The notes under the pieces: model-generated | What the model saw: only the letters and a program-made list of their open reading frames with translations | Databases searched by the model: none | What the model was told of the DNA's origin: nothing | Part shown: in pieces, positions 1 through 6,275 of the stretch | Numbering within the stretch: position 1 is the first letter of the stretch | How the letters are laid out: each line of letters begins with the position of its first letter | Program-made: the position numbers and the translations under genes | DNA from: a virus | Strand: one strand, 5' to 3' | IMG/VR virus record: IMGVR_UViG_3300017960_000056 | Coordinates: 1 to 24,080 of that record | DNA: 24,080 bases

Positions 1-112
1 AAAGCGCAAATGCTCCTGAAAGATTGATTGTGTTTTCTTTTTGTTTTTTAGAAACACATGATAAAATAGCCAGAATTAATACTAACGCGCCGATATAAAG
101 TATTTTTTTCAT
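1..112 (-). CDS. N-terminal fragment of a lipoprotein, possibly a PstS-like binding protein (runs off the left edge)
   Basis: Only the first 37 codons are in the window. The fragment begins MKKILYIGALVLILAILSC, a basic N-terminus, a hydrophobic core and a lipobox ending ILSC, so the product is very likely exported and lipid-anchored at Cys19. After the Cys the chain is polar, then reads INLSGAFAL. This resembles the first strand of some phosphate-type periplasmic binding proteins (SGAFALYP-like), but 37 residues are too few to be sure. There is no recognisable Shine-Dalgarno sequence before the ATG, only A/T-rich sequence, unlike nearly every other gene here. That and the Ser before the Cys give it a different flavour from the phage genes. 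It may be a gene from another replicon or organism, or mark an assembly junction. Confidence 0.45.
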   Translation of the reverse strand, partial: MKKILYIGALVLILAILSCVSKKQKENTINLSGAFAL

Positions 113-227
113 AGTTATTGTTTTAAAGATTATTTTGTTTTTTCAAATGTCTTATCTCACTTATTTTAAAAAATGAAAGGGGTAAAGTGCCTTGAGCCTT
201 AGAGCCACAAGGGTTTAAGGGGGTTTT

Positions 228-1745: not shown

Positions 1746-2078
1746 TTACTTTTTTTGCTTACCTTCTGCTTCATCCAGAAGGATTCGTAGGGCAGTGTTC
1801 ACAAAGGAAGTCTTAAAACCCCTTTTGCCCTTTGCTAATTTGTCTAAGCGCTTCCGTAAGTCGTTTTCAACTAAAAAAGTTGTTCGTGTATGAGTATCTT
1901 CAATAGTGGGCTTCTTTTGTTTGCTTTCAAACGTTTCAAAAAACTGTTCAGCATAATTTTTGTTTGCCTCATCTGTTTCTTCTGTTACACTGACTTCTTC
2001 TATATCTTCACTTTTTTGGGGTGTATCATCTAAATTTGAAATGAAATCAGTTAATTTTCGTTGTTTCTGTTGTTTCAT
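1746..2078 (-). CDS. Ribbon-helix-helix DNA-binding partner of ParA (ParB/ParG-like centromere-binding protein)
   Basis: The best start is ATG at 2078, with AAGGAG at an 11-nt spacing overlapping the end of parA, giving 110 aa; a GTG at 2096 lacks its own ribosome site. The first ~60 residues are acidic and look disordered. Residues ~63-104 (THTRTTFLVENDLRKRLDKL and the following helix with FKTSFVNTALRILLDE) fit one beta-strand followed by two helices, the ribbon-helix-helix fold. Proteins of this shape encoded just after a small ParA bind centromere repeats, stimulate the ATPase and often repress their own promoter (type Ib partition). Here the disordered segment is N-terminal, as in ParG-type proteins. 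The binding site is not identified; the dyad at 2906-2937 in front of parA is one candidate. The pairing with ParA is clear, the exact family is not. Confidence 0.8.
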   Translation of the reverse strand: MKQQKQRKLTDFISNLDDTPQKSEDIEEVSVTEETDEANKNYAEQFFETFESKQKKPTIEDTHTRTTFLVENDLRKRLDKLAKGKRGFKTSFVNTALRILLDEAEGKQKK

Positions 2079-2092
2079 GGTTCTTCTCTCCT

Positions 2093-2887
2093 TCACAATA
2101 TGCCTTCAGCTTTAAACTCTTGGTACAACTTATAATAAGCTTTAACCACTTTATGTTTTGGGTAGGTCAACACAGCAGGTTTTCCCTCGTATGCTGTTGA
2201 ATTAGAAAACTGGATGCTTTTAGGTATCACAGTTTCGAACATTGGCAGTTCTTTTTCGTAGCAGATTCTTCGAGCTTCTTGTAGCATTTGACTGTGTAGA
2301 GTTGTTCGAGAATCAACCATCATTGGAATAATACCTGATATATCTAACTGCGGGTTTTCGTCATCTTTGATTTGTTTGATAACGCTGATCATCCGTAGAA
2401 AACCACGGACTGCATACAATTCAGGCATTAGTGGGATTAGCACATGGTCACTTGCTGCAAGAACATTCCCGGTGACTAGCCCTATACTTGGTGGAGTGTC
2501 TATAAATATGTAGTCGTACTCTTCGTGTATCCCGTCAAACCTATCTACAAGCAGCCTAAATGGGTTCCCTAACTCTTTAAGGTTAGGTAGTACATCAAAT
2601 TCTAAAAAGTCCATTTCATCATTAGAAGGTAGCAGATCAATGTTCTTATCTAGTTTCATGATGACGTCTTTTGCACTCTTCTTTCCCATCATTACATCAT
2701 AAATGCTATGCTCGATATTAGCTGGGTTAATGTTGAAAGCAAGGGCGCAGTTACTTTGTCCGTCTACATCAATAATAAGTATCCGTTTTTTCTTGTTTTC
2801 TTTTGCTACAACACAAGCAAGGTTAGTTATAAGGCTCGTCTTCCCTACTCCTCCCTTGTTAGTTGCAACAGATATGACAACACCCAT
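2093..2887 (-). CDS. parA: ParA-family partition ATPase
   Basis: This 264-aa protein is a short ParA/Soj-type ATPase without an N-terminal DNA-binding domain. The deviant Walker A box KGGVGKT is at residues 11-17, the A' motif LIIDVDGQ at 37-44, and the Walker B strand YIFIDTPPS ends around Asp130. Such ATPases bind the nucleoid when loaded with ATP and move a plasmid along it through a centromere-binding partner, encoded immediately downstream. The start at 2887 follows GGGGGTG with a short spacing. The gene stands behind the strong terminator at 2975-3012, so it is transcribed separately from the lysis genes, probably from the AT-rich interval at 2888-2975. Its presence beside a complete phage structural module suggests a prophage maintained as a low-copy plasmid. 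Confidence 0.93.
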   Translation of the reverse strand: MGVVISVATNKGGVGKTSLITNLACVVAKENKKKRILIIDVDGQSNCALAFNINPANIEHSIYDVMMGKKSAKDVIMKLDKNIDLLPSNDEMDFLEFDVLPNLKELGNPFRLLVDRFDGIHEEYDYIFIDTPPSIGLVTGNVLAASDHVLIPLMPELYAVRGFLRMISVIKQIKDDENPQLDISGIIPMMVDSRTTLHSQMLQEARRICYEKELPMFETVIPKSIQFSNSTAYEGKPAVLTYPKHKVVKAYYKLYQEFKAEGIL

Positions 2888-2974: not shown

Positions 2975-3012
2975 AAAAAAAGACCAAGTATTACTTCGTA
3001 GTAACACTTGGT
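2975..3012 (-). terminator. Strong intrinsic terminator closing the late/lysis operon
   Basis: The minus-strand transcript folds into a 13-bp stem, ACCAAGTGTTACT (3012-3000) with AGTAATACTTGGT (2995-2983), with one G-U pair and a 4-nt loop. It is followed by one C and seven T (2981-2975). It lies 37 nt after the endolysin stop codon and separates the lysis genes from parA. Confidence 0.93.
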
Positions 3013-3048
3013 ATGTTTAATATTTATGTTTACGTATAAGTAATAAGT

Positions 3049-3876
3049 TTACTTATATCTTATGTTTTGACCAACTCTGATTAAGTTTTTGTCTTTAATA
3101 GTAGGATTAAGTTTCATTAAATTGCTTACTGTTGTCTTATACTTTACCGCAATTTCGGACAGTGTGTCTCCGGATTTAACCTTATGATATTTCTTGCTCG
3201 AAGATGACTTTGTTTCTTTGAGTTTAAGCTTTTGTCCGACTTTAATAAGATTTGGATTGCTGATGTTGTTCAGCTTTTGAAGTTTAGCTACAGTGGTGTC
3301 GTATTTTACGGCAATTTCAGACAGTGTATCTCCGGCTTTTACAGTGTAAGTGGAAGCTTTAGAAGTTGTTTTCTTGGCTGCTGTTTGTTTTGCAGGTTTA
3401 GCCGTAGCTCCTGCGGCTTGTTTGTCGATGTCATAAAGCTTGTTGGATTCGATAATGTTAATTAACAAGTTGGTGTAATTCGGGTCTGTGGCATATCCGG
3501 CCGCCTTTATCTTTTTGCAGGCTTCCTTATAGTCTGTCTCACCTAAGACAGCTTTATAGCGTTGGTTCTGTTTGAGAAACAGCGCATGGTCTTTTACACT
3601 GTCAGCTTGACTATTATACTTTCTCCATTTTGCGTTAACAGTCACCCAACGCTTATTAAGATATTCTCGTGTAGGCAACGTAATTGTTCTACCTTTCCAC
3701 GCAGAGTTAGCTTTAATCCCAAAAAGGTTGTTTCCCAACTTGGCTAATTGGCTGCTACCCCAACCTGATTCTAAGATAGCTTGTGCTATTGTCAGGGAAG
3801 GCAACACCTTATACTCTTTCCACCCGTTAATAGCTCCGTTCTTTACTTTGTTAATGAATGCTTGTTTATTTGTCAT
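3049..3876 (-). CDS. Endolysin: N-acetylglucosaminidase domain plus two LysM repeats
   Basis: At 275 aa the protein has an N-terminal FlgJ/AcmA-type glucosaminidase domain (residues ~1-150) with the catalytic motif ILESGWG, in which Glu36 is the expected acid, and the family marker NNLFGIK (49-55). An Ala/Lys/Thr linker (~153-175) leads to two LysM repeats (~176-219 and 230-274), each starting with a [11 protein letters not shown] block, which bind N-acetylglucosamine in peptidoglycan. It would cut the glycan strands at lysis once the holin opens the membrane. There is no signal peptide, in keeping with holin-dependent export. AGGAGG lies 7 nt before the ATG. It follows the holin by 26 nt and is the last gene before the strong terminator. 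Glucosaminidase endolysins are less usual than amidases in Bacillus phages. Confidence 0.93.
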
Positions 3877-3902: not shown

Positions 3903-4328
3903 TTATTCGTTTTTGGGGTCTGCCTGCTCAGTCTCTTCTAAGGCTTCCCCTTTTTCTTTAATTGTTTCTAAGTATCTGCCAATAAAATCAGGAATAGGTA
4001 TCCCTAATTCATGAAGATTTTCAACAATAGATATACCTTCCATACCGATATAAAAGAAAATAAGTGCTGATTTAGCCACCGGTACACTGTCGAACAAAAC
4101 GACATCGATCATATTACCAATGATGAGAACTAAGAAAATGCCTGCTTTTCTTAATATCCCGAGACTCATGTTCCTGCTGCGTAATTGTCTGTTAACCAGA
4201 GCTTTAAAAAATCCTGTTAGCGTGTCTAACGCAATGAATACTAGTAATACGTTCATAAATGGCGACCATTCACCAAAAAGAAACGTTATAGGGATGCCTA
4301 AGACGGCTAAAAATCCTTGCAGTTTCAT
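3903..4328 (-). CDS. Phage holin (holin family 4, TcdE/Hol44-like)
   Basis: The start at 4328 has AAAGGAG 8 nt upstream and gives 141 aa; an in-frame ATG at 4379 would run through the hairpin at 4351-4377 and has no ribosome site. Hydrophobic segments lie at about residues 4-18, 23-45, 60-75 and 85-100, and the C-terminal ~30 residues are charged (EEKG- and Glu-rich), typical of holins that assemble lethal membrane lesions on schedule. The segment [14 protein letters not shown] is characteristic of holin family 4, where an Asp in a membrane helix is conserved. It directly precedes the endolysin gene, the normal lysis-cassette order. Confidence 0.9.
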
Positions 4329-4350
4329 TAAATTTGCTCCTTTAAATAAG

Positions 4351-4377
4351 GGAGGTGCCACCATATGCAGCACCTCC
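4351..4377 (-). terminator. Hairpin between the XkdX-like gene and the holin
   Basis: The arms GGAGGTGC and GCACCTCC (8 bp, 11-nt loop) lie between the last tail gene and the holin. On the minus strand they are followed by CTTATTTAAAG, only a weak U-tract. It is therefore at best a partial terminator, or a processing or stability hairpin that lowers or protects lysis-gene mRNA. It also argues for the downstream holin start. Confidence 0.5.
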
Positions 4378-4379
4378 AC

Positions 4380-5057: not shown

Positions 5058-6275
5058 CTATAGAGGAATAATTTCGTCTAAACCGTAAGAAGTAATGTTT
5101 TCAAGCTTGTCAGATATTTGGCCTTCTAACCTCATGTTTCCGTTGGATTCGACATATAGCTTAGTCATCCCCGTTGTACCGAATATAGGAACAAGCTTGC
5201 TGCGTAGTTGGGCAGGTCTATAAGAGGCCGGGAGGGTTCCGAAAACTACACCCCTATTAGTGACGATCTCGCCCTTTAAATAAAGCAAGCCACCAACGGT
5301 TGCACACATAACTTTTCTGTCCCCGTGTTTTGCACCATTTTTAAGGGGAACTTCTGTCCAAGTTGGTTCAATTTCACTTGATGTTACAACACGCTTCCAG
5401 CCTTTGAAAACTCCGTCTGTGTGAACAGTGCTATGCCAAATCGTATTGTCGTAACTTCTCCAAGCATATATTGTTTTTCTTCCTTGATCAGTCTCAACTA
5501 CATCGTAGTTAAACCACGAGCTATCATTAGCTGTTGGATTGTTTTGGATTACATGTCCAGGAGCAAAATAAAAACCAGAAGGTAACGTTAATAGGTCAGT
5601 TCCATCGGCCAATTTAGTGCGTTTTCCGTCGTCACTAATAAATTTATACAGTTGAGCATTATTCCATTTATCCCTTTCACCGGGATTAAAATGTAGTTCT
5701 GTGTTGTTTGCATGAACATCTGTGTATTCCTTTGCATTCGCTTCAGCTTTGTCTGCTTTCTCTTGTGCACCTGTTTTTGTTTCAATGTTGTCTAAAACAG
5801 ATAAACGTTTTTCAAGGTCTGCTACCTTGTCTTCTAGTCTCTTCTTCAGCCCGTCAAAGTCAGATACGTAAAACTCTTGAATAATGTCCACAGTTTCATC
5901 AATTAAAGCCCTGTCAATTCTGAACCTGAACTTATGAACTGAGGCTTGTCGTTTGTCGTTATAGAGTAGGTACAACTCTGCTTGTACTTCTCCGTAGTGC
6001 TTTATCTCACTATCAGACAGAACATACTCAATAATTCCATTAGTAGGGTCAACTATATCCAGATCGTCTTTTACAAATATACTTTTGTCAGACATCTTCA
6101 TAGCCAACTTAGGTGTTACCGCACTTAAAGGAAGCCTTTGGCCTTTGTTGTCAGATAGAATAAATTTTAGTTTTGCCGTTCCTTTATCCAATGTTGAAAA
6201 GTTCGCATCTAAAAAAGTAGGAGCCTTGTATTCAGCCCCTACTTCAAAATTACCTATCACAGTTTTATACATCAT
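5058..6275 (-). CDS. BppU-type baseplate/receptor-binding protein with a knob domain
   Basis: At 405 aa the protein begins with a BppU-type N-terminal domain (residues ~1-140), the part that docks fibres on the baseplate of TP901-1-like phages. A coiled coil follows (~145-180, KKRLEDKVADLEKRLSVLDN). Residues ~205-295 resemble the pyocin-knob domain, with LPSGFYFAPG and a GWKRV close. The last ~100 residues form a beta-rich C-terminal head beginning EPTWTEVPLKNGA. The whole reads as a trimeric host-binding fibre. Its ATG overlaps the stop of the previous gene (ATGA). Host specificity cannot be read from sequence. Confidence 0.85.
   Translation of the reverse strand: MMYKTVIGNFEVGAEYKAPTFLDANFSTLDKGTAKLKFILSDNKGQRLPLSAVTPKLAMKMSDKSIFVKDDLDIVDPTNGIIEYVLSDSEIKHYGEVQAELYLLYNDKRQASVHKFRFRIDRALIDETVDIIQEFYVSDFDGLKKRLEDKVADLEKRLSVLDNIETKTGAQEKADKAEANAKEYTDVHANNTELHFNPGERDKWNNAQLYKFISDDGKRTKLADGTDLLTLPSGFYFAPGHVIQNNPTANDSSWFNYDVVETDQGRKTIYAWRSYDNTIWHSTVHTDGVFKGWKRVVTSSEIEPTWTEVPLKNGAKHGDRKVMCATVGGLLYLKGEIVTNRGVVFGTLPASYRPAQLRSKLVPIFGTTGMTKLYVESNGNMRLEGQISDKLENITSYGLDEIIPL

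Follow-up and report, generated by a model that had tools for sequence, protein, structure and literature searches.

A type Ib partition locus directly behind the lysis genes of a Bacillus licheniformis siphovirus that is probably kept as a circular plasmid

Why does a phage carry a plasmid-type partition locus directly behind its lysis genes, and how far does that locus speak for life as a plasmid? The question is posed by the window, meaning the whole stretch of 24,080 nucleotides from IMG/VR record IMGVR_UViG_3300017960_000056 that was analysed here. We propose, with a probability of roughly 0.9, that it represents 24 kb of a 31.2-kb temperate Bacillus licheniformis siphovirus, which is kept as a circular low-copy plasmid with a type Ib partition locus. 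The features around the junction of the late operon and the partition genes are the following.

1746 to 2078, minus strand: ParB-type partner; N-terminal half of low confidence and probably disordered, C-terminal half ribbon-helix-helix (RHH); ATG start preferred
2093 to 2887, minus strand: parA, encoding a ParA ATPase of 264 aa that has no N-terminal HTH (type Ib)
2983 to 3012, minus strand: intrinsic terminator that ends the late (lysis) transcript; two inverted parS-like half-sites make up the stem
2986 to 3052, minus strand: candidate centromere (parS), with five TTAC/GTAA half-sites in 62 bases
3049 to 3876, minus strand: endolysin (glucosaminidase and LysM), the final gene of the late operon
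3903 to 4379, minus strand: holin (Phage_holin_4_1)

The parA reading frame is complete, free of internal stops and encodes a protein that starts with MGVVISVATNKGGVGKTS. AAA_31 matches residues 4-183 (E 1.2e-45), and the PHROG family 'ParA-like partition protein' matches with an E-value of 9.1e-57. K11, G12, G13, K16, D42, D125, D130 and P133 are invariant across an alignment of 16 ParA proteins. This agrees with the initial annotation, which had described a complete short ParA with intact ATPase motifs. The protein has a deviant Walker A motif and begins directly at it, and thus has no additional N-terminal domain of the kind by which type Ia is defined. It is closest to the ParAs of plasmids and phage-plasmids, with relatives at about 43-52% identity on Bacillales plasmids and phages. 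Solved relatives include the pSM19035-type Orf delta (2oze).

The partner is encoded directly downstream, which together with the properties of ParA places the pair in type Ib, as had been annotated. Its open reading frame (1746-2096) opens at a GTG (2096), and an ATG at 2078 gives a protein of 110 residues. The ATG is the most likely start because both the annotation of identical plasmids (see below) and the ribosome site favour it. This site, AGGAGAG, had been noted as overlapping the end of parA; it is present, but sits immediately after the stop codon TGA and does not overlap the coding part. Residues 53-110 are predicted to form an extended stretch followed by two helices, with a core pLDDT of about 92-95. 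A profile of the RelB-like antitoxins, a family that we take to be RHH proteins, matched 7 of 21 members of the partner family (best 8.6e-7), and an Arc-like repressor profile also matched 7 of the 21 (best 0.0005). In a structural comparison of the predicted RHH domain, the top row was omega (1irq; Z 5.0, rmsd 2.8, 48 residues aligned), the ParB of pSM19035 (PMC9499535). As a Z of 5 is middling, the structural side of the case rests on the fact that almost all rows of this comparison are RHH proteins. A fold search with the whole partner gave no meaningful match, Foldseek with the RHH domain alone gave no significant one, an RHH profile matched none of the solved sequences, and Pfam assigned no RHH family to the 21 family members. 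The profile matches and the comparison of the predicted model nevertheless support an RHH fold at the C-terminus, and with it the earlier claim of an RHH partner beside ParA.

The pair recurs among relatives. In all nine records chosen from ParA match lists (L005 and L010 to L017), a small RHH-like gene lies directly downstream of parA. The encoded proteins are short to medium in length; their N-terminus is mostly basic, their middle variable and of low complexity, and their C-terminus RHH-like. A search with the RHH domain alone returned 24 loci, 19 in genomes and 5 in viral contigs, and a ParA gene lies upstream in 22 of them, the exceptions being L029 and L036. Scans of viral contigs with a single sequence of ParA, or of the candidate replication protein Rep introduced below, found no relatives. 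The record 'Enterococcus phage Efs 1-1-1' (OR846609) was dropped as a relative in ParA and Rep because its gene content is that of a piece of E. faecalis chromosome with an integrative element. Over 3,168 bp, the par region of Bacillus phage FADO shares 98.7-98.9% identity with circular plasmids of 162-166 kb from B. amyloliquefaciens and B. subtilis (L050, L011, L051), suggesting that FADO-like phages are probably phage-plasmids too. The viral record of L047, 41,904 bp long, has a ParA-RHH pair of the same type together with a large terminase and gave no Phage_integrase match; it is a possible further phage-plasmid.

The initial annotation had read the par genes as a sign of extrachromosomal lysogeny. 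Such genes alone are no proof of it (PMC8026635), so the case rests on circular DNA. Megablast with the window matched two circular B. licheniformis plasmids, which divide the window as follows.

1 to 125: stretch absent from both plasmids, probably a chimeric join
126 to 24080: phage-plasmid part, 99.99-100% identical to pTAB7B 28517-4200 except for a baseplate gene that is 363 bp shorter

Of the two plasmids, pTAB7B is a circle of 31,204 bp, and its sister NZ_CP065645 (FDAARGOS_923 unnamed2) is a circle of 37,079 bp with a Tn3-family insertion. A stretch of 25,231 bases is identical between the two isolates. The origin of window positions 1-125 was not found; they hold a possible minus-strand start of a lipoprotein-like protein, and are probably a chimeric join made in the virus record. 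The shortened gene encodes the baseplate upper protein (5058-6275), and the loss, relative to both plasmids, falls between two 59-bp direct repeats (window 5662-5720). It could be either a true deletion or an assembly collapse.

Both plasmids of strain TAB7 were assembled as single circular contigs. From PCR-free paired-end and mate-pair libraries, pTAB7B was covered 400x and the chromosome 85x (PMC6346210), equivalent to about 4.7 plasmid copies per chromosome. The DNA thus exists as an extrachromosomal replicon. Closure into a circle and a copy number distinct from that of the chromosome are what the initial annotation had named as signs of extrachromosomal lysogeny, and the two closed records and the coverage ratio support this lifestyle. 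Of the phages it had offered for comparison, P1 and N15, P1 is the better fit, since the N15 prophage is a linear plasmid. pTAB7B carries a full phage set of structural, packaging and lysis genes; those for terminase, portal, protease, capsid, tail and lysis are each annotated as whole proteins. The TAB7 genome announcement never describes pTAB7B as a phage (PMC6346210), and a search of one literature library for the plasmid or its accession returned nothing beyond that paper.

A plasmid prophage had also been expected to lack an integrase and to encode a replication initiator. Neither the Phage_integrase nor the Resolvase model matched pTAB7B, and where the Resolvase model matches the 37-kb sister, it does so inside the Tn3 insert. 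The part of pTAB7B outside the window encodes an antirepressor, an HNH endonuclease, small proteins, a family-less protein of 359 residues and a primase-like protein of 610 residues, whose gene adjoins a small gene. Relatives of the 610-aa protein, at 36-42% identity, are found on three Staphylococcus plasmids, and two of these plasmids contain complete sets of phage genes. Residues 1-180 of the pTAB7B protein match a viral protein with a C-terminal DUF5906 and a weak Pox_D5 match. In that viral protein, of 709 residues (L043 3281-5410), a Rep-like domain at the N-terminus is fused to a DUF5906/D5-like part. Parts of this type are usual partners of archaeo-eukaryotic primases. In the 610-aa protein, a weak match to the DnaG zinc ribbon follows the N-terminal part; when the Rep alignment was searched against PDB sequences, the only match was a ribosomal protein (E 0.18). 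Judged by these matches, the 610-aa protein is a likely candidate for the replication protein (Rep). It was matched in 17 of 397 sampled genomes. Near its three full-length genomic relatives, which are of Bacillales type, an antirepressor-like gene occurs once and an integrase-like gene twice, and a further relative lies in an E. faecalis chromosome fragment. The expected initiator therefore has a candidate in pTAB7B, but one that by itself is no plasmid marker, since integrase-like genes also lie close to relatives of it. pTAB7B carries a repeat of about 60 bp at 28570-28758, 1610-1670 and 245-312, close to the rep genes and ahead of two further early genes; these copies are possible operator or origin repeats.

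Could the circles be plasmids that merely retain phage genes? In a decayed or captured plasmid of this kind, maintenance would persist while phage production is lost. Megablast found two plasmid records and no phage record, one copy bears the Tn3 insertion, and no repressor gene of a known type was recognised, all of which would suit such a history. We consider it unlikely, as the proteins from terminase to lysis are annotated as whole, and their genes lie in the 25,231 bases that the two isolates have in common without a difference. An integrated prophage, with the plasmid records as assembly artefacts or excised forms, is scarcely credible. The 125 foreign bases at the left end of the window could be quoted for it, yet foreign sequence is found at that end only, two separate circular records exist, one with 400x coverage, and neither integrase family is matched in pTAB7B.

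A different objection concerns the par genes themselves. ParA and its partner might serve to transport phage DNA in the lytic cycle, or have a regulatory function, with plasmid inheritance independent of them. Motor proteins with such roles exist in phages (PMC8026635), and the nearest phage relatives of ParA belong to 160-kb phages such as FADO. The near-identity of the FADO par region to large circular plasmids, however, makes these relatives probable plasmids themselves, and the par locus has its own position behind a terminator. We regard a purely lytic or regulatory role as improbable, and prefer the reading of a temperate siphovirus kept as a circular plasmid, whose lysogens would be able to release phage.

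The terminator that separates the par locus from the late operon is as strong as initially annotated. It lies at 2983-3012, between the lysis genes and parA, and consists of 13 pairs followed by CTTTTTTTG on the minus strand. Its predicted fold has an energy of -17.4 kcal/mol (z -5.66), and none of 200 shuffled sequences is equally stable. It would keep late transcription from entering parA. On the other side of the par pair, directly downstream, lies a lipoprotein-like gene (1103-1663) of PHROG 3727, to which no function is assigned there; as a guess, it may encode a cell-surface or superinfection factor.

The candidate parS lies upstream of parA and overlaps both the endolysin stop and the terminator stem. 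TTAC or GTAA occurs at 3049-3052, 3040-3043, 3030-3033, 3001-3004 and 2991-2994, and two of these half-sites make up the stem. The DNA upstream of parA in relatives holds arrays such as GTATTACAT. A 13-base period with z>2.8 was found upstream of parA in 9 of 29 loci, compared to 5 of 104 controls, which were stretches of matched AT content taken from those loci; for the window alone, P is 0.041. A 12-base period was dropped as evidence because the controls show it as well (29/104).

A motif with the consensus GTATTACTTA was learned from eight relatives, which include none of the three plasmids used for testing, namely pTAB7B, S. aureus pWBG758 and S. carnosus FDAARGOS_1147 unnamed2. The eight training loci were picked from 28 after the upstream sequences and the period table had been viewed, and the window sequence had already been seen; the DNA upstream of parA in pWBG758 and in the S. 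carnosus plasmid was unseen before the motif was applied to them. In each of the three plasmids, the best place of the motif plasmid-wide is directly upstream of parA, and in the joint test not one of 150 control motifs, learned from AT-matched stretches, equals this. For pTAB7B alone, a ranking that appeared strong at first sight became weak once controls were run, as 11 of 150 control motifs (12 of 60 in another set) rank the region upstream of parA as highly. Leave-one-out analysis ranked this region first in three of the eight training loci and lower in the other five. In plasmids L010 and L005, which have a different partner type, the best place was not upstream of parA. Sixteen bases of the window site (TATTACTTATACGTAA) recur without change upstream of parA in an Alicyclobacillus plasmid.

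From these sequence patterns, parS likely lies at about 2986-3052. It is possible, if rather doubtful, that centromere and late terminator are one DNA element, with inverted parS half-sites as its stem. In that case the partition complex would sit where late (lysis) transcription ends, and partition and the lytic switch could interact. Neither the parS motif nor its overlap with the terminator turned up in a listing of the literature. The strongest 13-base periodicity plasmid-wide is found elsewhere, at pTAB7B 31141-31149 between rep and the antirepressor gene, and possibly marks a second binding region.

How might the locus act? We model partition on pSM19035 (PMC9499535). Dimers of the RHH protein would bind the half-site array just upstream of parA (parS, about 2986-3052), and the basic N-terminus of the array-bound protein would stimulate the ATPase of nucleoid-bound ParA. 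The resulting ParA gradient would move plasmid copies apart ahead of division. If the centromere is as placed, late transcription would stop within the partition complex. pSM19035 likewise has a ParA (delta), an RHH ParB (omega) and short repeats at the parA promoter, but its omega sites are contiguous 7-base repeats (WATCACW; PMC9499535), whereas those of pTAB7B are half-sites resembling TTAC/GTAA, for which relatives show a 13-base period.

A plasmid lifestyle is already known for Gram-positive siphoviruses (PMC8026635). Siphovirus-type plasmid prophages that combine ParA-Ib with an RHH adapter have been published for Bacillus cereus sensu lato, in Groups 5 and 7 and a group between them; a protein with a primase-polymerase domain, akin to the primase-like protein of pTAB7B, is present in the group whose description precedes Group 7 (PMC8026635). 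They differ in host and in size, averaging 52,342 bp in Group 5 and 71,333 bp in Group 7, and the passages of that paper that deal with them show no centromere. The Clostridium phage phiCD38-2 is listed as an experimentally proven circular plasmid prophage of siphovirus type with ParA-Ib and ParB-III (PMC8026635, Table 1); in contrast to pTAB7B, which matches neither recombinase family, it has 41 kb and carries Xer-like and small serine recombinases (PMC8026635). pWBG758 and the S. carnosus plasmid share with pTAB7B phage genes, the ParA and RHH pair, a Rep that is 42% identical and the same motif upstream of parA. Their par genes lie near rep, whereas those of pTAB7B lie directly behind the lysis genes, and pWBG758 differs further in carrying a short tyrosine recombinase. 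Passages of two papers on phage-plasmids (PMC12977533 and PMC10879196) mention examples from Bacillus and do not name the pTAB7B element.

Given the published B. cereus plasmid prophages with ParA-Ib and RHH adapters, the pTAB7B element is a fresh example of a known lifestyle. To our knowledge, the centromeres of most plasmid prophages are unknown, and the motif described here is a candidate centromere common to phage-plasmids of Bacillus and Staphylococcus. Taken together, a virus contig held as a linear fragment would be part of a circular phage-plasmid that is cultured in a commercially used strain, so that its copy number, its partition and its induction are open to immediate testing.
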